This document shows positions 1 to 56,118 of a stretch of 64,000 bases of DNA, one piece after another. The first letter of the stretch is position 1, and each line of letters opens with the position of its first letter. The translations under genes and the position numbers were made by a program. The DNA comes from Phycomyces blakesleeanus NRRL 1555(-). Taxonomy: Eukaryota; Mucoromycota; Mucoromycetes; Mucorales; Phycomycetaceae. The stretch covers positions 620,001 through 684,000 of the forward strand of contig NW_017265146.1 of NCBI RefSeq assembly GCF_001638985.1, given 5' to 3'. Under the pieces are notes generated by a model. The model was not told where the DNA came from. It did not search any database and worked only from the letters and a program-made list of their open reading frames with translations.

Positions 1-146
1 ACCGATAGACAAGATGTCCGCTTGGTGAAGCGTACAGGGCAACAAAAATTTGTCCAAGTTTTCGGAATCATCAGCTTCGCAGATTCTTTCACTACACCTC
101 TGACCCAATGGGTCAAGGTGAGCTCGGGCACTGCTAACAAACAATC

Positions 147-2078: not shown

Positions 2079-2514
2079 TGAGATAAATGATGTTTAAACA
2101 AAGTGCGAAGGAAAGGAAAACAGGGAAGGTGGGAATAATTGAGGTACATATATGTTTTTTGTTTTCTGATGGTAGTCGCGCTGACATCACACTCTAAGCT
2201 ACCAATATATTCGTTTATACGCCTTTATCAACTTGACACACATAGGTATGGGTAGATAAGAATTGTCTCCCCCCAAACAACTACCAGGCAGCCTGTATAT
2301 TTTCACATGATGATTAATACAGGTACCGCACGCCCTCTGAACATTATCACCCACACAAAAAGAACAACCAACCGGTTCATGTATATTTAACGCTTCTTCA
2401 CTGTGATAAGTTTCTATAGATTCACATCAACACCAAGTCCAAGTACCAAGAGGTCTGTACTTTACTATTGTAAAAGGGCTTCATTATATGTTTAATACGC
2501 TCGTCTTGAATATG

Positions 2515-2625
2515 TTATTTTATTCTATTTTATTCTATTCTTTATTTTATTTTATTTTATTTTATTTATATTGTGTTGATTAAACTCCCGAAATAAAATA
2601 AAATAAAATGAAATAAAATGAAAAT
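2515..2625. repeat. Pentanucleotide TTTTA / AAAAT arrays in inverted orientation
   Basis: A run of TTTTA/TTCTA units to about 2569 is followed, after a spacer of roughly 20 nt, by AAAAT/AAATG units. The two halves are complementary and could fold into a long AT hairpin. The same structure is present, mirrored, at about 35030-35135. Confidence 0.85.
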
Positions 2626-2737
2626 TTTCTTCTGTTGGAACAAGAAGTGCACAGACCAGCTTAGAGTAACCTGAAAATTGCCGTTATTGAAGCTTGTACT
2701 CTGTCTTTAGAGTTGTTACTACAAACGATCAAAACCA

Positions 2738-2777
2738 AGTCTTTCTTTACTTCTTTACTTCTTTACTTCTTTACTTT
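2738..2777. repeat. CTTCTTTA octamer tandem repeat
   Basis: Several perfect 8-bp units lie in a row. The other arm (about 34866-34910) has one more unit, which accounts for 8 of the 10 bp length difference between the arms. Confidence 0.85.
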
Positions 2778-8700: not shown

Positions 8701-10542
8701 CTAATACAAAGGAACAAAATATTCAGCAACGTAGTCAAATCTTAATTCTATATGTCCTTTATAAAGGTCTTTTGCCCAATCATCCTCGAAATACTGTAAT
8801 ACAGAATATACAAGACTATCTTCACCTTCAGGGATTAGCCGGTTGATAAAGAAACCACGGTAATAGTTTTCGACAAAGTCAGCTTCTTGTTCTGAGAGCC
8901 GTCTGCTAGTTTTTGTACAGTCAAACATATCGTCCAGTCCATAGAATAAGCGAAACCAGCCTATGGGATATACAATAAATCTCTTATTGATATCTTGTAT
9001 GCTTAGACTTCGTTGCCAAGGGCCAATTAAGTGGGACAGAAGGACCAAGTTGATGGCAGTACGGGAATCCGTGTATCTGGCCAGCGAGTAGAACTAAACT
9101 TGGGCAAGCAGCAGCATCTTGAGTCTTGTGTGGGACATGTCAATAAGCATGCTCCCCGTTCTTTGGCAGACTGGTCCGGAAACTTGTGATTGTGTCAAGT
9201 ACAGGTACTCCAATTGCCTGCACCGTAAGGAGACGTAGTTAAATGCAGTGATGCTTATAACCATTTCGTTTATCTTCAAAAGCCGTAATCCATGGCGGCT
9301 AATCTGTGCGTTTGCGTCTGTACTGACACCAAGCTCTCCTCCCGAAATGCTCAATTTTCTTAGCATTGGGCAGCTGTTCAACAGATTGTCCAAGATGATG
9401 GATACGGAGCAGTTGTTCATTTCAAGTTCTACCAGCCGCGGACAGTAAGGCAATTCTAGACTTGCAACTTGTCTAACCTCAAAATCTATGTGCCCGTCGA
9501 AAAAGAGTGTCCCGAGAGTTTCTTTGCAGCTTTGGGCACTTTGTCGGATTTTCTCTACTAGGCCCATTGGTTCCCAAATTCTGTTCACGATCTTGTACTT
9601 TATATTCTTAATAGGAGCTCTCGAAAGGCAAACGATATCCCAGAAAACAGCGTGAGATAATGCAGACGTGTACATAGCGGAAAAATCAACTGTTTCCAGA
9701 TGTGAGAACACCTTGGGAGTCAACTGAAGAAATTCTTCATTCATTTCTTGATAATCTTGCGCAAGCGGTGTGGAAATTTCATGTCCAATCTTCCACGTCA
9801 AATATTGTAGGTTTGGGTACTTGTAGCTGAAATAGTACATCCAGGTATGGTATGACCACAGGTTTTCCCAATCTACGGAGTTGAGCTCGAGTGATTTGAC
9901 TAAGGGTGCTGGCGTAGTGCTTGGGACGCTCACTACTTCATCTTGCGAAATTGTTTTGAAGCTTAGTTTACTTGCAATAGATTTTAGATGGGGTAGATGG
10001 GTGTGGAGAATTCTGAAATCGTCCAAAGTAAGAGACAAGTGCCGCGACTCAGAATACGGAGAGATGTCGAGTTCTTCCAGGCTGGGAGTGTTTCTTAAGA
10101 GCCTTAACAAAAACTGTGCCAATTCTTCCGAGGAAGAAGCATCGAGCGTGACCTTCAGGCTAACCAGAGACTTCCATAGGCCATGCTCATTTAACATTCG
10201 AAGTGTCTTGTCGTTTAAACCTAGAGCCGCAATATCGAGATGCCTCAAGTTCAAGAAGATTTTGAAAAGATTGTTTTTGAACACATCGTATAGGGAATAT
10301 TCTCCATTAAGACGTAGGTTTTGAACTGCTAGACCATAAGACAGTCCGCTTGCTGAACGCTTCGCAACTTTGCAGACCCTTTTGAGTGATTCGGAACTTC
10401 TGACCTCCATATCTTTCCAGAGTGAGTCTTGAAATGGGACCTCCCATCCTTTACAAACGAGGACACAATTGAGCTTGTCTTTGGGCAATAATTGAGAAGA
10501 AATTTGCAAAAGAAGTTCAAAAGGTAATTCGGATACGAGCAT
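8701..10542 (-). pseudogene. F-box/LRR protein gene with in-frame amber stop
   Basis: Reads as 613 codons plus stop, the same length as two intact paralogues here, but codon 483 is TAG (9094-9096). The reading frame continues unbroken behind it for 131 codons to the family's C-terminal motif (DLYKGHIELR). N-terminal residues about 1-45 are an F-box (SELPFELL, the VCKGW block, SLWKDMEV), expected to bind Skp1 of an SCF ubiquitin ligase. The middle is made of degenerate leucine-rich repeats, expected to bind substrate. At the stop the paralogues have R or L before FY, so one base change (for example TTG to TAG) explains it. It may be a recent pseudogene or still make a 482-residue protein lacking the C terminus. 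Confidence 0.85.
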
Positions 10543-12265: not shown

Positions 12266-14107
12266 CTAATAGTCATCTTCGTCTACCCAAAGTAAAGGCA
12301 TCTTGTAACTAGCTATGTGGCCACATCTTAATTCGACATAACCTTTCCAAAGATCTTTTTCCCAAAATCTTTTAGGTACCAGACCTTGAAAAGACTTTCT
12401 TTCTTCTGAAAGGTTTACTCTTTCTGTAGCCGGGGTGCTTTTATAATACTCGGTAGCAGTAGCAATTTCTTCTTTTGGAAGCTTTCTGATCTTTGATTCA
12501 AAACCGATTGTAATCTTCTTGCAGAAAAGATGGAACCAAGCTAGATGGTCCACATCATGAATTTCATCTACATGGTCTTCATTCTCATCCGACGGGAAAG
12601 AGCTTTTTAGCTGAGACAGCAGGATTAGGTTGATAACCTTCTTTTCATTCATGTGATCGTTGGACGGGTAGAACAAAACACGATGGAAATCCAGTTTTTT
12701 TAGACGAGTGTAAGGCATATTAATGAGCAGACTTCCCGTCTCTTCAGAAATCGACCCACTGATTCGTATGCTGTCCAAGTTCATATATTCTAAATTCCTG
12801 CACCTGTACGACATGTAGCTAAATACAGGAGCACTTGCATCAACATTATCTAGTCCCAAAATTCGTAATCCATGTTTTCCTGGATCTTCTCGTATTTCTG
12901 GGCTTATGTAAAGTTGTCCACTGGTAAACATTAGCCGCCTTAGGGCAGGACAGCTATCCAACAGATTGTCCAAATCAATGTATATACCACAATCGTAGAG
13001 TGTAAGGTCCACCAACACCGGACAGGACGGTATATTTAGCCTTACTATGTATCTGATATCATATGATACATTTCCTGCAACGAAGAAAGTTTCGAGTGTT
13101 TTTTCAAAGGATTGTAGTAATCGTTGGATAAGCATTTGTTGGAAGTTGGGAGAAGAAAAGCATACTCTTAGGATATATGTCAGCTTTTTGATTGGCACAT
13201 TTGACCGACAAAGTAAATCCCAGAATAAAGCGTGTGACCATGTTGAACGATCTTCAGTATAAAACTCCAATGTTGTTAAATGCGGAAAAACGTTTTTAAG
13301 TGAGTGTAAAAGTTCGGCTTTGTTTCTGTTGTATTCTTTAACAATCCGCTCTCTTGATTCACACATGGTTTTCCATTTCAGGGTACGTATGTTTGGATAC
13401 TTGTAGCTAAAATAATATAGCCATAAGTAGTCCCAATCTAACAGGTCGAGGTCAAGTGTTGTTACATGAAGAGCTGCTATAGTCGTTGGGATCGTATTTA
13501 CCGAATTCGAGTGAATATTAGTGAGATTAAAGCAGCCCTTGATAGATTCTAGCTGTGGAGATCGTTTGTGTAGCGTATTGAAGTTTTTCAAATTGAAATT
13601 GAGCGAATTCATTGAGGAGTGTGGAGAAACGTCTATCTCTTTGAGGCTGGGATAGTTCGTCAAGAGCCTTATGAGAATTGGTGTAAGTGAATTTTGTTTT
13701 GCAATCTTGATTACAAGCTTCAGGCTTATTAGCGATTTCCATGGACGGGAATATGTTATTTTCTTTATGTCAGTGCTGTCGATTATTACATGTTCAAGAA
13801 CAAGGTGTTTTAAATTATAAAAAGTTTCAAAAGCGTCGCTCTGTAGTAGGCTGTGTAGGGTACATGCTTCGACTATGGTTAGAGTCTGGAGTACAACGCC
13901 GTACGGAAAATCGCTTGTCGAATGTTTTACAGCGACGGCTGCGTCTTCGAGCTTTTTAACAGAACGGACTTCTCTGTCTTTCCAAAATAATTCTTGAAAC
14001 GTAGTTTTCCATCCTTTACATACAAAAATGCACTCAAACTTGTAGTCTTTGTATAGATAGTCTGCCACAAGGGAAAGAATCTCGTAAGGCAATTCTGATG
14101 CGGGCAT
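12266..14107 (-). CDS. F-box/LRR protein, 613 aa
   Basis: Intact single-exon gene. Residues about 3-48 form an F-box (ELPYEILSLV, FVCKGW, LFWKDREV); the rest is degenerate leucine-rich repeats with recurring NLKHLVL / SLKEIDV-type strands, and a C-terminal motif DLWKGYVELRCGHIASY. The expected role is a substrate adaptor of an SCF (Skp1-cullin-F-box) ubiquitin ligase, in cytosol or nucleus; the substrate is unknown. It is closest to the genes at 23889 and 42956. The start ATG is followed by PASELP, equivalent to LASELP in the paralogue. Upstream on the minus strand lies the element ACTGCGGCTT (14240-14249), also seen before the gene at 25769. Confidence 0.9.
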   Translation of the reverse strand: MPASELPYEILSLVADYLYKDYKFECIFVCKGWKTTFQELFWKDREVRSVKKLEDAAVAVKHSTSDFPYGVVLQTLTIVEACTLHSLLQSDAFETFYNLKHLVLEHVIIDSTDIKKITYSRPWKSLISLKLVIKIAKQNSLTPILIRLLTNYPSLKEIDVSPHSSMNSLNFNLKNFNTLHKRSPQLESIKGCFNLTNIHSNSVNTIPTTIAALHVTTLDLDLLDWDYLWLYYFSYKYPNIRTLKWKTMCESRERIVKEYNRNKAELLHSLKNVFPHLTTLEFYTEDRSTWSHALFWDLLCRSNVPIKKLTYILRVCFSSPNFQQMLIQRLLQSFEKTLETFFVAGNVSYDIRYIVRLNIPSCPVLVDLTLYDCGIYIDLDNLLDSCPALRRLMFTSGQLYISPEIREDPGKHGLRILGLDNVDASAPVFSYMSYRCRNLEYMNLDSIRISGSISEETGSLLINMPYTRLKKLDFHRVLFYPSNDHMNEKKVINLILLSQLKSSFPSDENEDHVDEIHDVDHLAWFHLFCKKITIGFESKIRKLPKEEIATATEYYKSTPATERVNLSEERKSFQGLVPKRFWEKDLWKGYVELRCGHIASYKMPLLWVDEDDY

Positions 14108-23888: not shown

Positions 23889-25769
23889 CTATATTTTAAC
23901 AGGACTATCAAACAACCTTTTCCAGAAACTATTTTCGCTAACCCACAATGAAGGGACAACATATTTAGCTACATGACCACATCTGAGCTCGACATAACCC
24001 CTATAGAGATCTTCTTTCCAGTCATCTTGGCTCACCTGGCCATCGAAAGATCTGTCAGCTTCAGAAGATTGAGACATGTTCTTAACCCGAGATCTCTGAA
24101 AATATTCAACCACATCACAGACTTCTTGTTCTAGGAGCTGTCTGACCTCTAGGGTAAAGTCGAATAAGCCTCCTAATTCACAATATAGATGATACCAAGC
24201 TAAGTTCTCTACAGAATGCTCCAAAGCTTTGTTCAAGTCTTCTGTTTCAGCTGTCATGTCAAGTCCAGTTAAGTGCGAAAGTAGTGTCAGGTTGATAGCA
24301 GTGTCTTTGTCCATAGCATTTTCAGATGAGTAAAACCTGACATGACTGAGCTGTAGTAGCTTGAAGCTGGTATAGGACATGTCAACGCACAAGCTTCCAG
24401 TCTTTGCTGAGATCGATCCCCCAATCTGCGAGCGACTCAAGTTCATATATTGTAAATCTCTGCATCTGAAGGACATGTAGTTAAACACAGAAGCGCTTGT
24501 CACAATTTCATCAAGTTCAACTATGTGTAGTCCATGTTTATTTGACTCTTTGTGGGCCTCTGGGCTATTAGTCAGCTGTCCTCTGGAAAACTTTAGTTGT
24601 CTTAAGGCGGGACAGTTATCCAGTATATTGTCCAATGTAATTGATATGCCACAGTCTGTCAGTTCAATACTCGTCAGGCGTGGACAATAGGGAAATTCGG
24701 ACCTGACAATATTTTTAGCTTTGAAATATGCATCTCCGATAATGGAGATTTTTTCGAGTGTTGTTGAAAAGGACTGGAAAAATCGTTGAATGATAATTCC
24801 AAGAAAACTCGGTCCACAACCACTAAATTTGATCATATATCTTATTCTCTTCAATGGAACATTTAACCGACAAAGGAGCTTCCAAAATAGAGTGTGTGAC
24901 CATGCCGTACGGTCTTCGGTGTAGAAATCCACCATTTCTAAGTGTGGGAACACACTTTGAAGTGAATTTAAGAGCACCATTTTTTCTGCATTGTACTTTT
25001 TAACAATCCGCTTTCTTGATACACACATGGTTTTCCATTTCAAAGTATGTAGGTTTGGATACTTGTAGCTGAAGTAATATAGCCATAAATGGTCCCAATC
25101 TAGGAGGTCGAGATCGAGTGCTGTTACATGAAGAGCTGGTGTAGTTGACGGGATTGTTTTTAACGAATTCTGATGAATATCAGTAAGACTAAAGCATCCC
25201 TTGATGTATTCAAGTTGTGGAGATCGTTTGTGTAGTGTATTAAAGTTTCTCAAGTTGAAATTAAGCAATTTTGTCGAAGAATGTGTGGAAATGTTTATCT
25301 CTTTGAGGCTGGGGTAGTTCGTCAAGAGTTTAATGAGAATCGGTGTTGGTACATTAAGCTTTGAAGTCTCGATTCGAAGGTTTACGCTGATTAAGTATTG
25401 CCATGGATAGTTATATGTTACATTTCTGATGTCAAAATTATCAAGTGATATGCACCGAAAAGCGAGATGCTTCAAATTCTGAAAGGTTTTAAAAGCATTG
25501 CTCTGCATCATGTTGCTTAAAGTGCATTGTCCATTAATGGTCAATGTCTGTGCTATGAGACCATATGGAAAATTGTTTGTCGAATACTTTACAATAGTAC
25601 AAATACTTTCAAGCTCTTCCAAAGTGTCGACCTCTGTGTTTTTCCAAAATGATTCTTGAAACGGGACTTTCCATCCTTTACAGACAAAAATACATTGAAA
25701 TCTTTCGCATGTAAGTAGAAAATCTCCAACAAGAGAAAGTATCTCAAAAGGTAGCTCGGACGCCAGCAT
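23889..25769 (-). CDS. F-box/LRR protein, 626 aa
   Basis: Intact single-exon gene and the closest relative of the 12266-14107 gene (shared LDLDLLDWD.LWLYYFSYKYP block in the middle). F-box at residues about 3-48 (ELPFEILSLV, FVCKGW, SFWKNTEV), leucine-rich repeats in the middle, then the C-terminal motif DLYRGYVELRCGHVAKY followed by about 20 extra residues not found in the paralogues. Likely a substrate adaptor of an SCF ubiquitin ligase; target unknown. The minus-strand element ACTGCGGCTT lies 158 bp upstream of the ATG (25918-25927). Confidence 0.9.
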   Translation of the reverse strand: MLASELPFEILSLVGDFLLTCERFQCIFVCKGWKVPFQESFWKNTEVDTLEELESICTIVKYSTNNFPYGLIAQTLTINGQCTLSNMMQSNAFKTFQNLKHLAFRCISLDNFDIRNVTYNYPWQYLISVNLRIETSKLNVPTPILIKLLTNYPSLKEINISTHSSTKLLNFNLRNFNTLHKRSPQLEYIKGCFSLTDIHQNSLKTIPSTTPALHVTALDLDLLDWDHLWLYYFSYKYPNLHTLKWKTMCVSRKRIVKKYNAEKMVLLNSLQSVFPHLEMVDFYTEDRTAWSHTLFWKLLCRLNVPLKRIRYMIKFSGCGPSFLGIIIQRFFQSFSTTLEKISIIGDAYFKAKNIVRSEFPYCPRLTSIELTDCGISITLDNILDNCPALRQLKFSRGQLTNSPEAHKESNKHGLHIVELDEIVTSASVFNYMSFRCRDLQYMNLSRSQIGGSISAKTGSLCVDMSYTSFKLLQLSHVRFYSSENAMDKDTAINLTLLSHLTGLDMTAETEDLNKALEHSVENLAWYHLYCELGGLFDFTLEVRQLLEQEVCDVVEYFQRSRVKNMSQSSEADRSFDGQVSQDDWKEDLYRGYVELRCGHVAKYVVPSLWVSENSFWKRLFDSPVKI

Positions 25770-28700
25770 GATAGAAATAAAAAGATAACAGAGAGCACGG
25801 TACAGCTATAAGTTTGAGTGGGAAGTTTAACAAATCGAAAAGATTGTGGATTGTTAAAGCTTTTATTAATGAGATGTATTGTTACACTGACATAGTGGAG
25901 TAACAGTCAAGAAGTACAAGCCGCAGTAAATATAGTATTTTCTTTAAAAATAACTACATGCAAAAGACGTATCTATGATCAAATCTGCTCCTAATCTTGC
26001 TTTTGTTTCTTTATTGGTTACTATTATTAACCATTCAAAATAATCAATAAAGCTGCCCATGCTATGGATAGAATATGGATCTTTTCTCATAATGTAGAGT
26101 TGGATTTAATGAGCTATGTAAAAATACTAGGGAACTACCAAGGTCAAAAAATTGAAATTGAAAGAAGAAAGAAACAAGACGATTACTCTAATGTTTCTAT
26201 ACAGCATTAAGCAAGGTTAGAGTAAAAAGAGTCTCCACAAATTAATGTTTAGACATAAAAAGCTAGTCGGTCAACATAATTAAGGAAGAATTGGTAATTA
26301 GCATATTGAATATTTGACACAAGGTGAACAAGGTCCAGTCACTTGAAACACATATTTTACATTACATAATTTAAACCAAGTCTTGTAAAAATTAACTGGC
26401 TTGCTGAAGCATTGTCCTAAATAGTGTTTTTTAATAGTAGCAATGGGTACCCAGTACTAATATCTAAGTGGTACAAAATGCTTATTACCGTACTATAACG
26501 GATAGTAACATGTTATAATAGGAATAGTAGACAATTTTTATTCAACTTTATTTCTGATACAAAGCATTATGCTCTTACATCCAAAAAGTGAAACAAATGT
26601 GTAGGGAGGGTATTTCAAAAGTAAAAATTACATCTTAGAAATGTATAAGCTTTTAAATATAATTAGATATAAGAGCACATATAAGGCATATCAATCAACC
26701 ATAGTTACATAAAGTGTATCTGCTTCTCCTCATGGGTTTGCCCAACCAAAAAAAAAAGTTACATAAACACTCCATAAATCTGATAACTATGAGTAAAGCT
26801 TAAATTATGTGTGATAATTTAGTAATGTATATAGCCAAAGTAACATACATAAACTTCACTGCTTTGTACAAGGCCAAGAGTTAATACGGCACTAAGGTCT
26901 GATATTCTTCTATGTACGTGAAGAGGTTCCTAATAAAGTTTTCTTTTTGGAGATGTATGTCCTGAGGAAAATTTGATATAAAACATGACTGTGTGGTACA
27001 AATATCCAAAATTATATTATTAAATGTTTTTTTTAATGAAAATTGTCGATTTTTTTTTATCAATATTTAAGCAAGCAATTTCAAACAGCATTTTTATGAT
27101 GCATCTTAGTATGCTTTGTTAGATTATTTAAAAGTGCAACAGCTATTTATTTAACCAATTTGGATATATACCCAATCTTTTGTTCTGAATATATTATTTT
27201 GATCATAATGATCCTTTTTTTAAGCAATTTTTTTATTTCCACTATAAATTCAACATTTTTAGAGTATACAATAATAAATACCTACTTAGATTAAATGTGA
27301 CCTTTCAGTTATGCTATTAATGGTTGAAAGTGGGTAGACAAGATAGGACGAGGAGAGTTAGAGAGACTTTTAGCATTGCTTGCTTTTGTTGATTACATAT
27401 ATAAAATTTATAAGGATCATTAGTATAAGTGGGACTACTCAAAACAATACTAATTATCAGTGATAAAGCTTGGATATTTTGAAAGATAAAAAATATACAC
27501 TTAAATATGTATATGTATATACAATAATAAATATAATGATAAACAAATGAATCAAAATGATTATAACCGACTTTGGGATATATTATGGTCTGTAATTGTA
27601 TTTATTATACTTGTCACTAAAAAGTAATGAAAGCTTGCTACCCATTTCATCACACACACATTAGGTCTGAGCATTTCAACCTTCCTACACGTTCTATACC
27701 TACCTTTGGTCTACCAGACTTTTGTTTTAAACCTTTGACAGATATGCTTAATACAGCTGTAGCACAAGTTTTGAGTTGACTATGATACCTTAAAATTATG
27801 ATCTGATAAATATTTTTCAAAACTTTTTGTAGGAGTTAGTACGTTTTCTGACGTTATTACTTTATTATCAAAGTATAGACATTCTATCTCGCTCTTCTAA
27901 AATATACTTCCAAAACAAGGAAGGAAGCTCCAAGCCATATATTTTTATACTTACCTTGGCTCACATTATTTTAGATAAATACTTTCTTTCGAATTTATCT
28001 ACTCAAAAACAGCTCGAGACCATTGTACTTACCATTTTCTAACTTTTGTTATTAAACTATATATCCTTATATAAATATAGAAGTATATATATCTGCCTCA
28101 AGAAAAAGATCCAATCTGACAGCAATAAAGGGGGGAAGGGGATGATTTGTTTTATATATTATAAACCAATACTGTTCAGGCAGCCATCTATCTCAATTTT
28201 GAGAGTAGTGTGTGAAAACCATTTACAAATTAATCCAGTAGTTCCACAAAGTATATAGCTTCACAACCAGTGTGTGCTCTCTAGAGTATTAGGTGAGCAT
28301 GATTGCGCACATAAAAAGAAACTAATCAACCTACTTCCACTAAAAGCTGTCAGTAATAGTGTAATCAGGAAAATAGACATAGTGCGAGAGTATATTTGTG
28401 TGTTTGAAGTGGTAAGAATACAAATACTATTGGAGAATAACAGTGGTCTGTAAAGTATTTAATACACTTTTCTTTTGAAAAGAGAGACTTAAAGAACTTT
28501 AATACTAGTTCATTGCGTTGTATGCTACAACAATATACGTATATTTCTGTGCTGAAAAGACATATTCTATCAGTTACTTTTTTCTTTTCTTATGCTTTTT
28601 TTATCCCATATACACTCCTTATATTTGCTTTTAAGAATAATTCTATAAAGAATAAGCTGCATTAGCCAAGAAATGTAAGTGGATTCTATAATAGTAGTAT

Positions 28701-29440
28701 TTTATTCAATCAGAATTAAGAGAAAACTGTATGCTTGTAGTTTGCAAAAGATATTTCATATATATGTAAAGTTTCGTAACTCTAATAAAAAATACATTTG
28801 AGAGCTGTTAAAATATCAATTTATTTAATAAGTACATGCTACTGTTATCTAAGTAGTAATATTTCTTTATGTCTATACCTTTCGAGATGTTCTGTTAAGT
28901 GAAAGTAGACAATTTTAGTCGGAAGGTTACAGAGACTTTTTTTATTTGTTTCGAATATTTTAAAAAGCATGATTGTAAGTAGTGTGAGTATAAGCTATTC
29001 AAAGAACGTATTTCCCAAAAGATATATAAAGGTTCTTTAAGGCAATCTAATACCCAAGGCATGTATAAACCAATACCAAGATGTCCATGATAGTAGTATA
29101 TATATATATATATATATAAAACATATAGCTTTTACTGAAAACATAAAACCCCATAAATTTTCATATGAATTTGTTTTGATTTGCCCAAAATAGGCAGTTT
29201 ACGCCTTCAGTACTGCGCAATCCCCAATTTTTTTCATATAAGAATCGATACAATTCCCTATTTCCTGTTTTTCCCCCTCTTCCTCCTGGTTTCCTTTCGG
29301 TGGTCCTTGGTTTCCGACACGGTAAGAAAACCGTCTTGAAAAGCCTATATCTTTCCATTTGTATAAGGCCCGTACTGATATGTACCATGGAAACGCACCC
29401 CAGACACGGTTTCTAGCTAAGTTCCAAAGCCGATGTCCAG
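25770..29440. other. Long AT-rich gene desert
   Basis: No gene supported on either strand. About 26480-26530 resembles the TIR of the MITE at 22895 (AACGGATAG..ACATGTTATAATA), perhaps a solo remnant. A (TA)n microsatellite lies at about 29097-29119. From about 29160 the sequence becomes less AT-rich and leads into the intron array; part of this may be the first exon or promoter of that locus. Confidence 0.5.
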
Positions 29441-29450
29441 TCTAATAGCA

Positions 29451-30310
29451 GGTAAAGTATTATATACATACATACACACACACACACTTTGACGTGGTCA
29501 GTATACTAACTACAGCACAGTGTTTTCTTGTGCCTGTTTTTTTCTGTCTTCTATGCCCAGCGTCCATTCCACTGTAGCCACAGAGAGGTCCTTCATGTCA
29601 AGTTTATGTACCAGGTAAGTAAATACACACACACACATGATTTGACACGATCACCACACTAACTATGATTCGATGTTTTCTTTTTTTTTATTACAGTGTC
29701 CAGTGTCCAGTTCCGTTTTGCTTTTAAGCACAAGTACTTCTTAAACCCTACGCAGTTATCTGCTAGGTAAGCAAACACACACACGCTTTGACATGATCAA
29801 TACACTAACTATGATTCGATATTTCTTTTATTTTATCACAGTGTCCAGTGTCCCGTCCCGTCTTGCTTTTTAGCACAAGTACTTTTCAAGCCTTCCGCTG
29901 CTGTTTACTAGGTAAGTAAACGCGTACATACACACATACTTTGACAAGATCAACACGCTAACTATGATTTGATGTTTTCTTTTTTTCTATTGCAGTTTCT
30001 AGTTCTGTTTAGCTGTTAACCACCATTCTTTTGATGGTGCCTTCATACCATGTATGGTCCACTGAGTGGTAAGTCAATATATACATACTTTGACTCAATT
30101 AACATACTCACTTTATACTTTTATATTACTTTATTCTCTTGATAGTGTTCAAAGGTATGCTTATGGAGAGGTGTACCGAGAACCAGCTCAGTATTTTACA
30201 CCCTTCGCAGTTAACAGCTAGGTAAGTAAACGCGCACACGCGCACACACTTTGACACAATAAGTATATTAACCTTATACTCGATTTTTATTTATATCTCT
30301 ACTCTTGGAG
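29451..30310 (+). ncRNA. Tandem array of short exon-intron units (noncoding)
   Basis: Predicted introns: 29451-29560, 29615-29696, 29767-29841, 29912-29995, 30069-30145, and about 30222-30310. Each starts GTAAG/GTAAAG, has a CA-repeat, a TTTGAC block, a branch site (ACTAAC in four of them), a T-rich tract and CAG or TAG. Exons between are 54, 70, 70, 73 and 76 nt, not multiples of three, with stops in all frames, so the product would be noncoding. Exons 2 and 3 are close copies (TGTCCAGTGTCC...GCACAAGTACTT) and later ones more diverged. Splice signals are better kept than the rest. The array runs straight into the rRNA-like sequence. A satellite with incidental splice sites is the main alternative. 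Confidence 0.6.
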
Positions 30311-30399
30311 TGGTCACTGAGTACCTCGTATTCTATCGGTCACGATATATCAAAAGGAATATACGTAAACATTTTCATGCAAAATGTGTATATCATGGT

Positions 30400-31935
30400 C
30401 TTTAACAGTGAGTCTCCGGGCTCTTTTCCAACTCGCTCATTGTAGACGCCTTATTTATAAGGCTTGTCTTAATATGAGATTATGGTTTTTTTATTGAACG
30501 CACTGCACTCTTTGGCGTCTAGTCATTGAGTTCGCTCAAGGTACCATGGCCTAAAATTGGTCCGTACTTTGAGCGATTCTACCTGCATTTACTGCAGTGG
30601 AAAAGAAACCAAAAGGGATTCCGTCTTGGACTTTATTGTTTGAGATGGAGAAGCTCCAATGTTTGAACCGGAGTAGTCTTTTGACTGCTCTGGATTGTGA
30701 ACTAGTGAACTGCTTTTCCAGACATACCAACAAGTCAGTAGCCTTCACTCCCTGGAAAAGGTTATTGGAGGGTGCAATCCCCTCACCTTGTCTTGAGTTC
30801 TTGTCTTTGTGTTAAGTAGCTTCCGATGAGTCGGGTTGTTTTTACAAACACCCTAATCCCGGTGAAAAGTTTCATCGAAGGCTAAATATACTTATAAAAA
30901 ACCAACTGATCACAAGTACCGTAAGGGAAAGTAGCTCTTAGTGTAGAGCATACTGGATGTTAAAGACCTTCCTGAGCCACTCATATGAAGGCGAAAGCCG
31001 GATGAAATCCACGTCAGTTTTTTCTGTGTTGTGCGGCACATAACATGGAGAAGACTGAGGAACGCAGAAGTAGCTTTATGCTATTTTCTTAGGACGTTGG
31101 ATATTGGCTCTCCAGATTTTGTCCTTTGGGGCATGTCAAGATTGTCACAGAAAGGTGCAAGTATAAGGGTGTATCACCTGGATGCGTAGAGTTTTTTAAA
31201 TTCGCTGAGCACCTGGACGTGAGGTAATACAGGTAGATTCCAGCAGAATCGACAGATTACCCAGTACAATCGCCTGTATTTTACTGCTTCCTGTTGAAAT
31301 GATCCCTGTGCTTTTCAAGTCCCTCATTGCTTGGACTTTGATACTTGTAACCCACGCTCTGGTAAACAGAACTGGACATGAGGGACGAACCCGAAGCAAA
31401 GTTAAGGTGCCTAAGTAAATGCTATGCTGTTCACTTGGGTGTCTCAGACACCTGTCCCGAGCAGTTTGGCATTAAAGCATTTCACTGATACTTTGCCGTC
31501 ATGGTAAATTTGATGCCATGCCGAGTAGGCAGGAATGAAGGTTGTTGAGAAGCTTGGGTGTAAACTTGAGTGGATCGGCCTTCAAGCGCAGGTCTTGACA
31601 AAAAAATCTTTATTTTTTTACTTTTGGGATATATCGGATATACTTTAAAAGTATATAAACCATTTTTCAATACACTATTCAGTATTGAAATCTTGTCGAA
31701 TCTTTCCTTACAACCAGGGTATGTATATGTATATAGACTCGTACCAATAATGGTCATCATGGTTATCAGTTTATGAGAAACTAATAGTACAACCTCTTTG
31801 TCTTTCTTAGTTTAGTTGGTCTGCTTTGGACAAGATCGGTTTTTGGCCTCACTCATTTGATATATCTGTACCTGGTCACCGCGAGTAACAGTTTGACAAG
31901 CTTCCAGATTTATTCTAGCTTAAGTATTTCTTTAA
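30400..31935 (+). rRNA. Divergent, fused 5.8S-LSU rRNA-like sequence (partial)
   Basis: Motifs appear in the order of nuclear rRNA. 5.8S-like: AACAGTGAGTCTCCGGGCTC (30404) and TTGAACGCACTGC (30494). LSU-like: GGAAAAGAAACC (30599), GAGGGTGCAATCCCC, GATGAGTCGGGTTGTTT, GGCTAAATAT (30880), CAAGTACCGTAAGGGAAAG (30913), GGTAAACAGAACTGG (31361), GTTAAGGTGCC (31401), GAGTAGGCAGG (31523). The 5.8S part joins the LSU part through TTGAG-TTCG-CTCAA (30526-30539), so there is no ITS2. Likely helices are kept with changed bases, for example 30668-30693 and 30833-30853. Only the LSU 5' third is present; about 150 nt interrupt it after 31598, with weaker similarity resuming at about 31752. It could be a pseudogene, a neofunctionalised RNA or a transferred reduced rRNA. 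Confidence 0.72.
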
Positions 31936-32457
31936 TTGTACTTCCTTCATGACTTGCTCATATCAAATATCTTTCTATAGTTGTATTTTTCCGTTCTAAT
32001 CATCACAAGTACCCATATTCAATTACCCATAATATTATTATTAAAATTATTAAATTATCTTAATGAGCTGCTATCAATCTATTTCAGAAAAAATACTATA
32101 TAATCCCAAATTCCCCTGGTTCTTGATATGAATAGCACTGCTATTTGTTGCAAAGGCTATGAGTGTTGATCTGACCACCCCTTTTACTTATTCGTACCTT
32201 TTTTCTTACCAACTCTTACACCACACAAACCAACATACCATGTCTCAAACCCACTTATGAGAACGCATAAATTCAAATATATAGTTTTTGAAAAAAAGAA
32301 AAAAAGAAAAAAGCTAAATTTATTTAAAAATAGTGTAGTGGCCCCTTCATAATCCTTCTTCATCTCATGTATGCAATTAGGAATCTACATGAAATTAGTC
32401 TTGGAAATTTGAGCCAGAATACTGTTTTATTCCGCATGGGTAGCCGTCTCAAACTTC
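31936..32457. other. AT-rich spacer, no gene seen
   Basis: Follows the last LSU-like motif and precedes a Tc1 relic. No rRNA domain IV-VI motifs and no coding sequence were recognised here. Confidence 0.45.
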
Positions 32458-33060
32458 TTAAGAGTTTATTATTATTATTATAGATGGGGCTCTTACCTTT
32501 ACTCTTCTGGTAAGATACGACCATAAATTTTCTATGGAGCTGAGGTTTGGGTTATTGGAAAGCGACACTATCCCTGTCAAGTTTTGGTATTTATTCCACT
32601 CTTCTACAAAATTAAATTTTCGACAGGAGGTACTATTTCCTTTGTACGATAAACTCTCAGACATTGTTCCAATTAAAAGCTCACATAAATTGAAGTCACT
32701 TCTTTTATGATACTGTCGGACTCTAGTATTCCCACCTTTGCCAAAGAGCACAAATCTTGACTCATCACTCGAGATGACGCAATTGTCACATCTGATTGGT
32801 CTCTCTGGTGTAATTAAAAAGAAATCACTTCTTCTTGTGTGCCTTTGGTAACAGTGGTATGTACGCTGTTTTACGGGAGCACAATCCAGGTCTACGAAGA
32901 GTTCGGCGAATGGTTGACTTGATGATCTAATGTACCAAGGTGCTTGACATGGAGTTTTTAAGACCTCCTGGAGTCGTGTTACGATTCAACTTGATGCCAA
33001 TAATCAAATGGTGTTGAACTCATTCATTAGCCATCCTCAAATTTTTTTTTTGCTTCGTAA
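32458..33060 (-). pseudogene. Decayed Tc1 transposase
   Basis: Minus-strand translation shows VISSDESRFVLFGKGGNTRV (first catalytic Asp region) and NPNLSSIENLWSYLTRRVKV (catalytic Glu region, normally NPIENLW). The segment with the second Asp between them is missing or scrambled. It belongs to a different Tc1 lineage than the element at 14848-16153, judged by its motifs. It abuts the Helitron helicase scrap at the inner edge of the right repeat arm. Confidence 0.75.
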
Positions 33061-33079
33061 GAAAATCTGTCCTCATATT

Positions 33080-33148
33080 AATTTATTTAGCCCTGTGGTG
33101 TAGATAGATTATTTGCCTTTTTTTATATACTTCCTTAACAAATTTAGG
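33080..33148 (+). pseudogene. Diverged Helitron helicase 3' end (second copy)
   Basis: The sequence from AGCCCTGTGGTGTAGAT to about CATTTTTAGAG is a diverged copy of 4491-4560 in reverse complement, with several substitutions and small indels in about 70 bp. It marks the point where the inverted repeat changes from near-identity to ordinary divergence. Confidence 0.7.
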
Positions 33149-36100
33149 CATTTTTAGAGTAGTTTATATCTCCCCGAGTTCACACTTGTTTCTTCTCTAA
33201 AAAGCATTGGCGGACCCGTATTTACGCTTTACACAACTTTACTTAATAGACAAAAAAGAAAATTTTCCCAACTTTTTTTTCAGTTGTCCTGTGAGTAAAA
33301 GTGGGTATCGAAAATGTACTTTTTGGTGCAAATAGCCCAATTTACAGTGGATCAAGATTTTATAGAGTGAAAATGTAGGATGTTTTGGTCAATATTTGAG
33401 CAATCGATGCCCAAAGCTGCTGATAATGTGGATCTTAATGTGTCTAACCAAGTTGCTTATAGTCATAGAGTCTAATAGCTTTATGAATAGTGATTTATAG
33501 CTGATTTTTGGTGTAGAATTTGCCAATTTGATCAAAATGATCATTTTCGTTGTTGGCGATTAAAATTTTTATAATTTATATCTCGGCACAGCAACTTTAT
33601 ACAGCTAGGACATATGTATTAATATACTGCTAATAAAATAGTAGCTGTCTCTAAAAAGACATACAAGAGATTCAAGAAAACAATAATTTGTATCTGATAT
33701 GTCTTTAAACATGGATAAAAAGGGCAAATCCATGAAAGTTTAATATATATATATATATTGGTGTGTGTGTGTGTGTATGTCAATAAAATTGTATGTCAAT
33801 AGTTGAGATAGACCTTCGTTGTCTTCTACAAGTATCAGCTATCAGAATGAAGTATTTGTGCTTTATTCTTTGCATACATACCCAGTAATGGAATACATTT
33901 AATGTAATATTGTTGGCTTATAAATTTTTGAGCTATATTATTTTATTGCTCCAAGCTTATATTATGAAATCCTTAACGTGTTTAGCTTCAATGATCAAGA
34001 GACTCTTCCGTGAATCCCTTTTTCAGAAAAAGAAAAAGAAAATTATTGGATAGTCCTTGTAAGCAATATATATTCTGAGGTACTGTCATTATCATCTATG
34101 TCCAAAACAGCTTTGTAATATCTCTGAGCAGATTAGATATTCTATTTTATATTTATTTGTTAAAAGAATAATAGCACCGGATTCTTTGTACCTGCATTAC
34201 ATGGCTCGATCTTCTTCAGGATCTAAACCTGACTTGATACAAATGAAGTCTGAAAACGGTGGTAAGATATATGACACCTGTTATATTTCCCTTTGCCCCT
34301 AAATCTCATCCGTGAATAACGGAGGGTCCAAACTTGCCAACGAGAATTTACTATAAAGTAGCAAGGGTCAGCTTACTCGACTACGAAAGCGTCCACTGCC
34401 AGTCATCAAAAACTCTGTAAATGTTACCGATAAAGAGTTAGTACAATTTATTGCAGGTTAGTTCCTCTATCTCTCATAACATCACTATGTTACGATTGGC
34501 TGATACGCTTTACACAGCAGCCCATCCAACAACAACAAAAAAATTGCCTTGGCCTAATATTAAACTGTAGTACTGCAGTTTGGGGGGTCTTATAAGTGTT
34601 CTGGCATTTTGTTAACAAAAAATGGTCTCATAAGAGCTGTTAATATTTATATGTGGATTGAATATAACAAGGAAGAGGGAAAGCATCCGATAGTCAATAT
34701 GATTTTTTACTACTTTGGTACATGTTTTCTCTTTCTATTGGTTCTAATTTATACTAACCTGTAATTGTGTAACTGTTATGCAACGGAAAGAACAACCAAT
34801 AAGAAACAGTCATTACATCACAAGAACCAACTTTCTTGCAAGTAAATCAAAAGAAAATAGAGCAAAGTAAAGAAGTAAAGAAGTAAAGAAGTAAAGAAGT
34901 AAAGAAAGACTTGGTTTTGATCGTTTGTAGTAACAACTCTAAAGACAGAGTACAAGCTTCAATAACGGCAATTTTCAGGTTACTCTAAGCTGGTCTGTGC
35001 ACTTCTTGTTCCAACAGAAGAAAATTTTCATTTTATTTCATTTTATTTTATTTTATTTCGGGAGTTTAATCAACACAATATAAATAAAATAAAATAAAAT
35101 AAAATAAAGAATAGAATAAAATAGAATAAAATAACATATTCAAGACGAGCGTATTAAACATATAATGAAGCCCTTTTACAATAGTAAAGTACAGACCTCT
35201 TGGTACTTGGACTTGGTGTTGATGTGAATCTATAGAAACTTATCACAGTGAAGAAGCGTTAAATATACATGAACCGGTTGGTTGTTCTTTTTGTGTGGGT
35301 GATAATGTTCAGAGGGCGTGCGGTACTTGTATTAATCATCATGTGAAAATATACAGGCTGCCTGGTAGTTGTTTGGGGGGAGACAATTCTTATCTACCCA
35401 TACCTATGTGTGTCAAGTTGATAAAGGCGTATAAACGAATATATTGGTAGCTTAGAGTGTGATGTCAGCGCGACTACCATCAGAAAACAAAAAACATATA
35501 TGTACCTCAATTATTCCCACCTTCCCTGTTTTCCTTTCCTTCGCACTTTGTTTAAACATCATTTATCTCAATGAATTCCAAAGTTTACAACGCTCTCTGC
35601 GCAGCCTTCGCGCTCGCCTATCTACTTGCCCCAGCTCTCCTGTTCATCCCTGTGATGTTATGGGAGGCTTCTCCTATGCCCTCTGCATTCTGCATGGCCA
35701 AATCTGCTAAGAGAAGACGCCCCTCCATGGCTGGAGTGGGTGCAACCCCATTTGTTGCTGTAAGACCAGACGGCGAAGATCAAATCGAAGCTCACAAAAA
35801 TGTGATGCCTCAGACAATCCTTGGCATGCTGTCAAACTGGGTAGGCTCTTTGTGGTCTACTGGTTCGCAAACAACGGGAGAACCCTCAGGTAGCTTGTTG
35901 AGTAAGCGCCACGGAGGTATCCCAGGGCATATGTCCGTCAATGATTCCTCTTCGGAGGCGGAAGACGTTGTTTGTGTAGGAAAGTCGAGCGTGTTCTTTG
36001 GAGCAGGGCTTCGGGGATATGTCCCTCACCTCCTTCCTTTGCATAAGTTGGGACGTGGCATCGCTACAATGGTGTTCCCAGTTAACGGCGTGGCTGGTAC

Positions 36101-37648
36101 CTGTGGGGAAACCCATGCAGACCTCGACGAGGGTGTGTCGAGTGAGCTTGTAGACGAATGCGATGAAGCTGAGGTCAGCGTACGACTCAGATTCATCTGT
36201 GACAGATTTTTCTCAGAGGGTTTTGCAAAGCCAAGACTCTCTGCTAGATTTCTTGACGCGATGTTGGAAGAGGAGCTCAACGACTCTGCCAACAAAGCTC
36301 ATCGCGACTCATTGACTGAAGTCGCTGAACCAAAGTGCGGCTTGGTTCCCAAGTCAGCTGAAGAGACTCCTGTCCAAAGACAAGAGTCCATTCAGACCCC
36401 ATCGGGTTTGGATAATGCTGGCTTCGTGGTTCCAAAGCCAAAGTTTAGGACAGTGGAGGGTCTAAATGAGGCGTTCGCGCTATCGTCTTGGCAATCAGCC
36501 AATGGATTTTTTGGTGAATGTCTCTCCACAGGACTTCCCACACCGATGGAGATTGACGACGACCTGGCTTGGAGTGAAGCCGAGGAAGTTGAAGATCCCA
36601 TGGAGATTGATGATGTTGCTGAGGTGATGGTGCTTGATGCTGATTGTGGCGAAAAGCTCATGGCCCACACCTACAATCCAACGGTTACCGATTTGCAGTA
36701 CGTCTCCCAGTCTGCAAACATGGATTGTGATACGAACGATCTCCCAGCCTGCGTACCGCAGCAGGCTGCAGACGACAAGATGGAAGACGACACAGAAAAA
36801 ATAGTGCTACCGGAACCATCCTCTCTGAAGAAGTACGATGCGCCCAAGCCTAGACAAAAAGTAGGTGCCGACGAGGTTAAGGGTAGCAAAGAGCCTTCAA
36901 TGGCGGTCCCCCGACCAAAAGAGAAGAGCTCAAAGCTTCCTCGACCTGCCAGTCAAAAGGCCATTGAGGAAGCAAAGACCGCAATCGAAGGGCCAGAAAG
37001 CAAGATGGCTTCGGCCTCTTGTGATCTCCCTTCACAGCTTCCCAAGCCACTTTTTGGCCTTCGCACCGAGCGGGCAAAGCTTGTGTCAAGCCTTGCTTCC
37101 GAGGTGCCTGAACCTGTCACAACAGCCAGTTGTGACAAGGGAAAGGCCCCAAAGAAAAAGGCCAAGACACAGGGGTCAACTGCTACCCCAGCTGCCCAGG
37201 TCTCTGTTCCTGTTGCTGCACCCAGCAGCAAAAAGGAGGAGAGTATCAAGGAATTCAAGTCGGATCTTCCTTCTGCATCTCGCGGCAAGAAAGTGAAGAC
37301 TTCCGGCGGTGATGAGAAGGCCGATCTAATTATCGAACCCATCGGTAAAGAGATCGGAGAACCTCAGATCCAGCCATTCCCAGCTCGCAATCCTGCGTCA
37401 AAGCCGGCAAAGTCTTCGAGTAATAGAGGAAAAGAGGATCCAAAGAGCCTATTGAAGTATGTGCTCCGATTCAAAGGCGATCCAGCTGTCAACAAGGAGT
37501 AAGATTGTTTGTTAGCAGTGCCCGAGCTCACCTTGACCCATTGGGTCAGAGGTGTAGTGAAAGAATCTGCGAAGCTGATGATTCCGAAAACTTGGACAAA
37601 TTTTTGTTGCCCTGTACGCTTCACCAAGCGGACATCTTGTCTATCGGT
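33149..37648. repeat. Right arm of the 4.4 kb inverted repeat
   Basis: Reverse complement of 1-4490 with the few differences listed for the left arm; this arm is 10 bp longer (8-bp unit plus AC). Since the window starts inside the left arm, the true outer end may extend past 37648 here. From 33149 to 35570 no gene is seen apart from the repeat's microsatellites; about 100 bp before 35571 should hold the promoter of the 643-aa ORF. Confidence 0.95.
35571..37502 (+). CDS. 643-aa protein of unknown function (right copy)
   Basis: Identical in every residue to the copy at 147-2078. N-terminal hydrophobic segment (about 8-31), KRRR patch, paired PMEIDD motifs within an acidic region, and a basic, proline- and serine-rich C-terminal third. 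The ATG at 35571 is the first in frame after a TTTATCTCA leader. GC content is high relative to neighbouring AT-rich DNA, and the GC-rich character continues downstream to about 39000. No domain is recognised, so no function is proposed. Confidence 0.7.
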   Translation: MNSKVYNALCAAFALAYLLAPALLFIPVMLWEASPMPSAFCMAKSAKRRRPSMAGVGATPFVAVRPDGEDQIEAHKNVMPQTILGMLSNWVGSLWSTGSQTTGEPSGSLLSKRHGGIPGHMSVNDSSSEAEDVVCVGKSSVFFGAGLRGYVPHLLPLHKLGRGIATMVFPVNGVAGTCGETHADLDEGVSSELVDECDEAEVSVRLRFICDRFFSEGFAKPRLSARFLDAMLEEELNDSANKAHRDSLTEVAEPKCGLVPKSAEETPVQRQESIQTPSGLDNAGFVVPKPKFRTVEGLNEAFALSSWQSANGFFGECLSTGLPTPMEIDDDLAWSEAEEVEDPMEIDDVAEVMVLDADCGEKLMAHTYNPTVTDLQYVSQSANMDCDTNDLPACVPQQAADDKMEDDTEKIVLPEPSSLKKYDAPKPRQKVGADEVKGSKEPSMAVPRPKEKSSKLPRPASQKAIEEAKTAIEGPESKMASASCDLPSQLPKPLFGLRTERAKLVSSLASEVPEPVTTASCDKGKAPKKKAKTQGSTATPAAQVSVPVAAPSSKKEESIKEFKSDLPSASRGKKVKTSGGDEKADLIIEPIGKEIGEPQIQPFPARNPASKPAKSSSNRGKEDPKSLLKYVLRFKGDPAVNKE

Positions 37649-42955: not shown

Positions 42956-44797
42956 TCAATATTTAGCAATGTGACCACATCTTAATTCGACATATCCTCT
43001 ACAAAGATCCTCCTTCCAATAATCTTTATCAACCAGTCCAAAGCCAGATCTCTCAACTTCAGAAATATTTTCCCTGTCTTTTTTGAGCTGAGACTCTTTA
43101 AAGTAATCAACAGCACTAATAACCTCTTGTTCCGAAAGCTTCCTGATCTTTAGAGTGAAATCGAATACGTATTCAAGTTCACAGTAGAAGTGGTACCAAG
43201 CTAGATGTTCCACAGAATATTCGGATTTTTTAATGTCTTGTTTTCCAGTTGCTGGACAATTTCCAGCCAAACGAGAAAGCAATACCAAATTGATGGCAGT
43301 ATTCTTGCTTGGATCATCGTCATAGTTATAATCATCGTCATTAGAATAGTAAAACATGGCGTCGGAAAATTTCAAGGACTTGAAGCTTGTGTAAGACATG
43401 TCAATGTATAGGCTTCCATTTTCAGTGGAGCTTGATCCATGAATTTCCGAGTGGCCCAAATCCATATATTGTAAATTTCTGCACCTGAAGGATGTGTAAC
43501 TAAGCACGGAGGCATTTGCTTCAATGGAATTTAGATTCAAGAGTTTTAATCCATGCTGCCTTGACTCTCTAAGCGCTGCCTCTGGACTGATGTATAGCTG
43601 TCCGTTGTAGAAAGTTAACTGTAGTAAGGCGGGGTAATTATCCAATAGGTTGTCCAATGCAATCGATATGCCACAGTCTTTGATTTCAATGCTCACCAAC
43701 CGTGCACTAAACGGAAATTCAGGCTCTACAATGTTATCCTTTTCAAAACAAAAATCACCAATAACAGAGATTCTTTCAAGGGTTTTTATGAAGGATTGTA
43801 AAAGTCGGCGGATAACCGTTCCAAGGAATATCGCTCCAGAGGCACCAAATTTGAGCTTGTAGTGTAATGTCTTGAGAGGTACACTTGACCGACAAATAAA
43901 TTCCCATAATATAGCATGCGACAATTCTGTCGTTTCTTCAGTGTAAAAATCGAGCGATTCCAAGCTCGGGAACACTTTCTTAATCGAACGGAGTAATGAT
44001 ACTTCTTCTTCGCCGTATTCTTTAATGATCACTCCTCTTTCTGTTTGGCACGGGGCTCTCCATTTCAAAGTGCGCAGGTTAGGATACTTGTAGGCAAAGT
44101 AGTACAACCACATACTATCCCAGCTCGTCAGGTGCAAATATAGACTTGTTAAATGGAGCGCTGGTTCAGTTTTTCGAATCTTTCGTGCATCTCTTCGGTT
44201 TATATCATCGAGTGCTAGGTTAGCCGCCATGCTTGTCAGAGATGGTAACATGTTGTGCAGATTATTATAGAGTTGCAAGCTAAGCTCGAGTGGAACCCGA
44301 CGATAATGTGGACCGATGTCTAATACTCGGAGGTTGGGAGTACTTCGCAAGATACCGAGCATCTTTATGGTCGAATTTCTAGAACGCGTATGCTTAAATT
44401 TGGTCTTAAGCTTGGTGATCGACGACCATTCAAGATTTGACTTGATTTCATCCATTTTGATTTCACTGAAAAAAAGGGATCCCATATCGATATATTCCAA
44501 GTTCGGAAATGCTTGAAAGACATTATTCTTCTGCCAGCCAGTGAAGTTTATTATTCCAGTAAAGCGTATGTCTGTAGTCATCAGATTAAAGGGCATAGTC
44601 TTGTTTGTCGAACTGTTTATTATGTCGCTAATATTTTCGAGTTCTTTCATAGAATAAACTTGTATTTTTCTCCAGAGTGATTCTTGAAATGGAATCTTCC
44701 ATGCCTTGCAAGCCAGAATACAGCAACACTTGTCACTCGTTGGTGTAAACCTTGCGATATTCGAGAGAATCTCGAAAGGTAAGTCTGACGCCGACAT
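42956..44797 (-). CDS. F-box/LRR protein, 613 aa (outside the inverted repeat)
   Basis: Intact single-exon gene. F-box at residues about 3-48 (DLPFEILSNI, ILACKAWKIPFQESLW), degenerate leucine-rich repeats, and the family motif DLCRGYVELRCGHIAKY placed at the extreme C terminus with the stop directly after it. A run of D, N and Y residues (near 500-515) is an insertion relative to the paralogues. Expected role: SCF ubiquitin-ligase substrate adaptor. A variant of the shared upstream element (GCTGCAGT at 44991-44998) lies about 200 bp before the ATG. Confidence 0.9.
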   Translation of the reverse strand: MSASDLPFEILSNIARFTPTSDKCCCILACKAWKIPFQESLWRKIQVYSMKELENISDIINSSTNKTMPFNLMTTDIRFTGIINFTGWQKNNVFQAFPNLEYIDMGSLFFSEIKMDEIKSNLEWSSITKLKTKFKHTRSRNSTIKMLGILRSTPNLRVLDIGPHYRRVPLELSLQLYNNLHNMLPSLTSMAANLALDDINRRDARKIRKTEPALHLTSLYLHLTSWDSMWLYYFAYKYPNLRTLKWRAPCQTERGVIIKEYGEEEVSLLRSIKKVFPSLESLDFYTEETTELSHAILWEFICRSSVPLKTLHYKLKFGASGAIFLGTVIRRLLQSFIKTLERISVIGDFCFEKDNIVEPEFPFSARLVSIEIKDCGISIALDNLLDNYPALLQLTFYNGQLYISPEAALRESRQHGLKLLNLNSIEANASVLSYTSFRCRNLQYMDLGHSEIHGSSSTENGSLYIDMSYTSFKSLKFSDAMFYYSNDDDYNYDDDPSKNTAINLVLLSRLAGNCPATGKQDIKKSEYSVEHLAWYHFYCELEYVFDFTLKIRKLSEQEVISAVDYFKESQLKKDRENISEVERSGFGLVDKDYWKEDLCRGYVELRCGHIAKY

Positions 44798-55998: not shown

Positions 55999-56021
55999 GT
56001 GCTTGCACCTCTGTCACATAT

Positions 56022-56053
<32 letters not shown>

Positions 56054-56112
56054 GGCCCCTGCACAAGGATGACACTAAACTTCTGAGATGGAACGCTCTA
56101 CGGAGCATATTT
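55999..56112 (+). ncRNA. U6 spliceosomal RNA
   Basis: The core AAAATTGGAACGATACAGAGAAGATTAGCATGGCCCCTGCACAAGGATGACAC (56021-56074, read in pieces of less than 20 bases: TTGGAACGATACAGAGAAGA, TTAGCATGGCCCCTGC, ACAAGGATGACAC) is the U6 core with the ACAGAGA box, AGC triad and internal stem-loop. The 5' end GTGCTTGCAC can form the capping stem-loop. The 3' end (TTCTGAGATGGAACGCTCTACGG) differs from the usual U6 tail. A T-run (56110-56118) is a polymerase III terminator. A pseudogene cannot be excluded because of the unusual 3' part. Confidence 0.85.
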
Positions 56113-56118
56113 TTTTTT
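56110..56118 (+). terminator. Polymerase III T-run terminator of U6
   Basis: Nine consecutive T directly follow the U6 3' region. Confidence 0.8.

Follow-up and report, generated by a model that had tools for sequence, protein, structure and literature searches.

What is a piece of the large ribosomal subunit doing, outside any ribosomal RNA (rRNA) unit, in the genome of a mould? We address this for a 64,000-nt stretch of Phycomyces blakesleeanus NRRL 1555(-) (NW_017265146.1, positions 620,001-684,000, assembly GCF_001638985.1; hereafter the window, by whose coordinates all positions are given), in which sequences resembling 5.8S and large-subunit (LSU) rRNA follow one another without the internal transcribed spacer ITS2. 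The element in question, a core at 30397-31599 on the forward strand, proved to be one of many copies in the organism's own 53.5 Mb assembly, against which all genome searches were run. As set out below, these copies are best described, from their sequences, as a mobile family of rRNA-derived structured RNAs resembling the LSU assembly domain, and we put the probability that selection has kept such a structured RNA at roughly 0.55.

Homology of the core to eukaryotic LSU rRNA

When positions 28500-33500 were scanned with cmscan, the eukaryotic LSU model RF02543 matched 30559-31614 on the forward strand with 165.1 bits (E 1.1e-41; gathering score 50), and the segment 31135-31599 by itself matched model positions 665-1455 with 90.1 bits (E 9.4e-22). 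All six diverged genomic copies scanned likewise exceeded the cut-off of 50 (86.7-131.7 bits). Because both the window copy and these six pass the cut-off, LSU homology is not in doubt, and the E-value together with the diverged matches rules out a chance match. A bacterial, archaeal or mitochondrial LSU was ruled out as well, the eukaryotic model being the match retained within the LSU clan. No phage relatives were found, and two exact DNA patterns searched in viral contigs gave zero matches. The original prediction that nuclear-type 5.8S- and LSU-like motifs lie here in the correct order without ITS2 was supported. A fast-filter scan of the whole 64 kb window missed the match at 30559-31614, and a fast-filter scan that included copies L010, L012 and L018 found the LSU in none of the three; since Rfam fast filters skip a 165-bit match in a 64 kb scan, such rRNA-like copies may stay unannotated.

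A search of the genome with 30400-31620 returned 37 matches, 33 of them full length and 87-100% identical (including the window copy), together with one copy found as two overlapping pieces and two lone fragments. With the most divergent copy as query the same 37 matches at the same loci were recovered, and no more distant relatives were added. Of the 33 full-length copies, 26 were retrieved; they comprise 20 distinct sequences, which we aligned.

The LSU-like part stops at 31599 and no RF02543 scan carried the LSU match past 31614, so the end originally placed at 31935 lies too far downstream. Two features that define an LSU rRNA were looked for in the core. Domains III-VI, with the peptidyl-transferase centre, are lacking (no LSU match beyond 31614), and the GTPase-associated centre, compared by eye with real LSUs, has shrunk from 104 model positions to 34 nt in the window copy, as it has in 20/20 aligned copies. 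With neither feature present, the core is not a functional LSU rRNA, and the RNA alone would be unable to act as a ribosome.

Anatomy of a helix-bounded core

Judged by its sequence, the core is a compact 5.8S plus LSU domains I-II, bounded by a helix at each end (Table 1; the helix and domain names are those that we take to apply). It opens with GGTCTTTAAC, ten bases that form a 10-bp helix with GTTAAAGACC at 30959-30968, in the position that we assign to the pairing of the 5.8S 5' end with LSU. Strings matching this helix occupy the corresponding place in two reference contigs (L048, L051), and in the divergent copy L041 an A-U pair replaces a G-C pair within it. At the other end, the last seven bases pair back to 31135 in the closing helix of domain II, with two compensatory changes relative to the consensus. 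Besides the GTPase centre, a second stretch has shrunk, 23 nt standing for 144 model positions, presumably those containing the A-site finger, and the H25 region aligns poorly to RF02543. The shortening of the LSU part noticed originally was confirmed: from the first LSU helix motif to GGTAAACAGAACTGG the core measures 781 nt, against 1078 and 1267 nt for the matching interval in two real eukaryote LSUs.

The 5.8S identity of 30397-30534 is not proven. The covariance-model check proposed with the original prediction succeeded for the LSU and failed for 5.8S, as model RF00002 gave no match up to E 10 on 30380-30560 (181 bases), and an alignment to a typed 5.8S sequence scored 46.7, no better than shuffles (mean 33.9, sd 5.9, maximum 60.2 in 500 shuffles). 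The assignment draws on the order of the parts, the string TTGAACGCAC and two helices. In the window and in the 20 aligned copies the 5.8S-like and LSU-like parts are continuous, without ITS2. The junction TTGAG-TTCG-CTCAA (30526-30539) had been read correctly; its stem is intact in six of seven lineages and the TTCG loop is kept in five of seven. Because minimum-energy folds of the single strand favour a longer hairpin, 30532-30575, over the tetraloop stem, the predicted TTCG tetraloop helix in place of ITS2 is plausible, not proven.

Table 1. Coordinates of the parts of the core and of its immediate borders in the window
Feature	Position	Strand	Evidence
Conserved leader immediately 5' of the core	30312-30396	+	0/85 sites variable in 11 copies; kept from 30336/30339 in two C4 copies with unrelated upstream flanks
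5.8S-like part, joined to the LSU-like part, TTCG loop (30531-30534) replacing ITS2	30397-30534	+	Order; TTGAACGCAC; helix 30397-30406/30959-30968; stem 30526-30530/30535-30539; no 5.8S model match
LSU domain I-like part, H25 region replaced (~30937-31134)	30535-31134	+	RF02543 alignment; counted model pairs
LSU domain II-like part, closing helix GUCAAGA (31135-31141) / UCUUGAC (31593-31599)	31135-31599	+	RF02543 665-1455; two compensatory changes in closing helix
Short hairpin region replacing the GTPase centre, 34 nt for 104 model positions	31425-31467	+	RF02543 alignment; shortened likewise in other aligned copies
A-run ending the conserved unit 3'	31600-31606	+	Conservation falls directly after the A-run in most copies

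The host's own 5.8S lies elsewhere and is the single match listed by a genome search with RF00002; host ribosomal DNA (rDNA) there has the normal order 18S-ITS1-5.8S, followed by ITS2 sequence. An LSU rRNA that had merely lost ITS2 and shrunk, as first proposed, does not describe the core, which stops after domain II, lacks the GTPase centre and has 33 full-length matches in a genome that keeps its ITS2-bearing rDNA. Of the comparison contigs, L047-L051 carry eukaryotic rDNA within sequences filed as bacterial genomes in GTDB, which is contamination; rDNA matches were seen for L047 and L051.

Base pairs preserved relative to the eukaryote consensus

Mapped onto the window, 144/167 of the RF02543 pairs are canonical. 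Where both sides of a pair differ from the eukaryote consensus, 49/61 pairs are still canonical, against a mean of 26.8 and a maximum of 41 in 10,000 shuffles, a count that uses an alignment fitted to the model and so leans to pairing, overstating the excess by an unknown amount. Two helices, the one at 30661-30702 and the one that closes domain II (31135-31599), are visible on direct inspection. Taken with the 49/61 pairs, these helices argue that the ancestor most likely diverged while an rRNA fold was maintained, though the present RNA is without the translation parts. The paired double changes, together with the separate and normal 18S-ITS1-5.8S-ITS2, also make simple decay of the host's own rDNA unlikely. 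The two outcomes that the original prediction had named against itself, no model match or simple decay of host rDNA, were therefore not what we found, as the sequence is neither a chance match (165.1 bits) nor simply decayed host rDNA (49/61 pairs).

Evidence for and against selection on the family

One sign of constraint lies at the 3' border of the core. Among 11 copies, variable sites number 14/1065 in domains I-II and 2/144 in the 5.8S-like part, compared with 39/112 in the next downstream stretch (domains I-II versus downstream, Fisher P 1.4e-31). In eight of ten copies identity to the window copy drops from 98-100% to 80-91% in 31600-31699, and, set against L044-L046, identity is 95-96% within the core and 77-80% over the 93-96 aligned bases that follow. 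In two C4 copies the likeness to the window is confined to 30336-31691 and 30339-31606, their upstream sequence being unrelated. Where L010, which stands for the abundant main lineage, differs from the divergent copies L041-L046, it is mostly L010 that carries the eukaryote consensus base (23 v 4, 26 v 6, 29 v 13, 9 v 3, 8 v 2 and 8 v 0, respectively), and it forms 142/166 of the model pairs, compared with 130-131 of 165-167 in the C4 copies. By these measures the abundant lineage has the look of constraint and the C4 copies that of decay. Variability is also lower at strongly conserved, LSU-identical sites than at the rest (25/204 versus 148/803; P 0.038).

Several results, beside the leaning of the fitted alignment towards pairs, weigh against selection acting on the RNA at present. 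Downstream of the core L010 and L017 show a gentler fall, to 99% and 95%, then 93%. The consensus counts for L010 are not independent, because L041-L043 are related, as L044-L046 probably are. On the 5' side, introns and exons are conserved to about the same degree and variability declines gradually towards the core, and both this gradient and the conserved introns are what gene conversion would be expected to give. Selection for pair-keeping that is still under way was sought among the copies and not found: single changes at paired sites keep the pair in 17/47 cases (null 16.1), the same count on the minimum-energy fold gives 62/157 (null 62.5), and paired and unpaired sites are equally variable (46/285 versus 127/722). 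Changes random with respect to base pairs, the mark of a pseudogene, are seen among the copies and not in the comparison with the eukaryote consensus (49/61). We regard the evidence for present function, as read from these sequences, as moderate, not strong.

Dispersal in inverted units with MITE-like ends

The repeat unit common, wholly or largely, to the other main-group copies spans 29114-31827 on the forward strand, and 28428-32397 is shared with L010 (blastn, 20 main-group stretches); in L015 and L023 the shared part is shorter or interrupted. Within it, at 29452-30311 on the same strand, lie six intron-like units with GGTAAR donors, CTAAC-like branch sites and AG ends, alternating with exon-like stretches of ~54-75 nt. 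This array is retained in main-group copies and is possibly the 5' part of the same transcript as the core. A further intron at 31718-31810 was rejected, as its acceptor reads otherwise in most copies inspected.

Coordinates and strand place 20 of the 33 full-length copies in ten divergent inverted pairs. Arm-to-arm comparison of eight of the ten gave a main arm piece of 2.6-4.9 kb that is 99.4-100% identical, with a second arm piece in the C2b pair at 91% identity. The four units with the longest clean arms have a centre of 1.9-2.5 kb and a total length of 11.7-12.2 kb; all four end in GGGGGTTTCA(A/C)C, flanked by TA on both sides in three. They are part of a repeat, ~505 bp long, whose own termini are inverted, and 23 of the 99 matches listed cover that repeat alone. 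The window copy is single and without the exact end motif. In the one unit scanned for open reading frames (ORFs) of at least 90 aa, the arms held none and the centre two that look spurious, which ruled out a coding element for that unit. When the copies are considered as short interspersed nuclear elements (SINEs), an A-run does follow the core; yet 33/37 matches are full length, only two are lone fragments and main-group copies keep the intron-like array. No target-site duplication was seen by eye at L043, the sole copy inspected.

Two observations on individual loci may be added. The ~505 bp repeat at L018:6552-7057 resembles a miniature inverted-repeat transposable element (MITE), with inverted ends TA-GGGGGTTTCACC, and occurs in many places as well as at the outer ends of the units carrying the rRNA-like core. 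Copies L042 and L043 have, by eye, near-identical upstream sequence, but their cores differ and in places look like L041; this mosaic pattern is suggestive of gene conversion.

A proposed structured RNA and its rivals

If selection has kept the family as a structured RNA, its members would be dispersed, mobile non-coding RNA genes whose product is 5.8S fused to LSU domains I-II, trimmed of translation-specific parts, and would imitate the portion of the large ribosomal subunit that folds early. The family would be transcribed, perhaps with the core as the last exon of the intron-like array, and the RNA itself would be the target of selection. In the likeliest mechanism, such an RNA would fold as the body of LSU domains I-II and bind whichever ribosomal proteins or assembly factors recognise the region, serving either as a decoy that tunes 60S assembly or to lend the element a stability and nucleolar location that aid its spread. 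This particular mechanism of protein binding is doubtful. We offer only tentatively the wider proposal that a selfish or domesticated element converted the half of the large subunit that folds first, 5.8S plus domains I-II, to an independent RNA on which ribosomal proteins or 60S assembly factors dock outside translation, a ribosome decoy selected for its fold.

The best-surviving alternative, which we think possible rather than probable, is that an anciently divergent LSU fragment was captured by a transposon-like unit, spread along with it and was kept uniform by gene conversion and recent transposition, its RNA being inert. It would explain why no pair-keeping bias is seen among copies, why the arms of inverted pairs are 99.4-100% identical over the main aligned piece, why introns are conserved and the 5' gradient gradual, and why the units have MITE-like ends. 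It sits poorly with the compensatory changes relative to the eukaryote consensus, made despite the loss of translation-specific parts, with conservation that stops at a helix boundary in most copies, and with the main lineage's retention of the LSU consensus at sites where older copies no longer have it.

We consider it improbable that the sequence was transferred from an organism without ITS2 in its own rRNA, such as a microsporidian or related parasite, and was then truncated and multiplied. The core is compact and divergent, and its fusion of 5.8S with LSU without ITS2 recalls microsporidia (PMC8997704). Against this stands the GTPase-centre region of 34 nt in 20/20 aligned copies, because of which the trimmed form, as it stands, did not derive from a working rRNA. 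Over ~370 nt the family is, moreover, 49-52% identical to yeast-like rDNA (L050) and 44-49% to four other eukaryotes, in a comparison set without microsporidian sequence, identities that weakly fit a fungal origin.

The core might also be a fragment of a second, divergent LSU rRNA that is split up, with the remaining domains elsewhere in the genome. This is very improbable: the ends of the core do fall on domain boundaries, as the ends of split rRNAs do, but the GTPase centre is gone, and a search of the assembly with what we take to be a yeast domain IV query and the peptidyl-transferase motif (three mismatches) found nothing, an absence that is weak because part of the host rDNA unit reads N.

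Relation to known rRNA-derived sequences

The microsporidian LSU is a complete working rRNA, whereas the Phycomyces core goes no further than domain II, has no GTPase centre and exists in many copies alongside the host's normal rDNA. R2 elements are autonomous non-LTR (long terminal repeat) retrotransposons, whereas the arms of the scanned Phycomyces unit hold no ORF of at least 90 aa. With rRNA pseudogenes and dispersed rDNA fragments the family shares an origin in rDNA and a scattered distribution. It departs from the random decay expected of them in that most of its doubly changed pairs can still form and its ends lie on helix boundaries. What it shares with microsporidia is the continuity of 5.8S-like and LSU-like parts and a compact LSU, for in these parasites 5.8S is part of the LSU rRNA and ITS2 is missing, a loss cited correctly in the original prediction (PMC8997704). 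With R2 it has in common LSU-derived sequence inside a mobile element, 28S-derived sequence being described there in the 3' untranslated region (UTR) (PMC5035012). Cassandra and Ajax are non-autonomous retrotransposons whose LTRs contain 5S rRNA-like sequence, and there are also SINEs derived from 5S (PMC10886601); the likeness is of a mobile element with rRNA-derived sequence in its terminal repeats. The Phycomyces units differ from them in that their cargo is 5.8S/LSU domains I-II, set in long inverted repeats whose ends are MITE-like; no LTR turned up, none having been sought.

We found no report of this rRNA-mimic family in the literature searched, outside whose scope lay most subscription journals and the Phycomyces genome papers. 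Mobile repeats with 5S-derived sequence are already known; with a multicopy RNA that keeps the fold of LSU domains I-II minus the translation parts, rRNA would have been put to a new use. If real, it would make it testable whether an early 60S assembly unit can persist as an independent RNA, whether cells or transposons employ rRNA mimics as decoys, and which parts of the LSU serve folding and protein binding rather than translation. There is also a practical caution, in that LSU annotation and barcoding can go astray on such copies.

Other features of the window

The sole gathering-level Rfam match in the whole-window fast scan is a U6 spliceosomal RNA at 56001-56114 (80 bits). An inverted repeat joins 1-4518 to 33121-37648; its arms are 100% complementary along overlapping pieces of 2776, 1154 and 654 nt and stand 28.6 kb apart. 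The left arm begins at the window edge, and the repeat may be real or an assembly effect. Inside it lie identical 643-aa ORFs at 147-2078 (-) and 35571-37502 (+), without a Pfam match. The latter has ten protein matches, eight from Phycomyces blakesleeanus that are 70-95% identical and two more at 98% and 60%. The window also holds five long ORFs that look alike, at 9094-10542, 12266-14107, 23889-25769, 42956-44797 (-) and 57383-59233 (+); three of them were scanned, with F-box model matches for two and a leucine-rich repeat (LRR) model match for the third.
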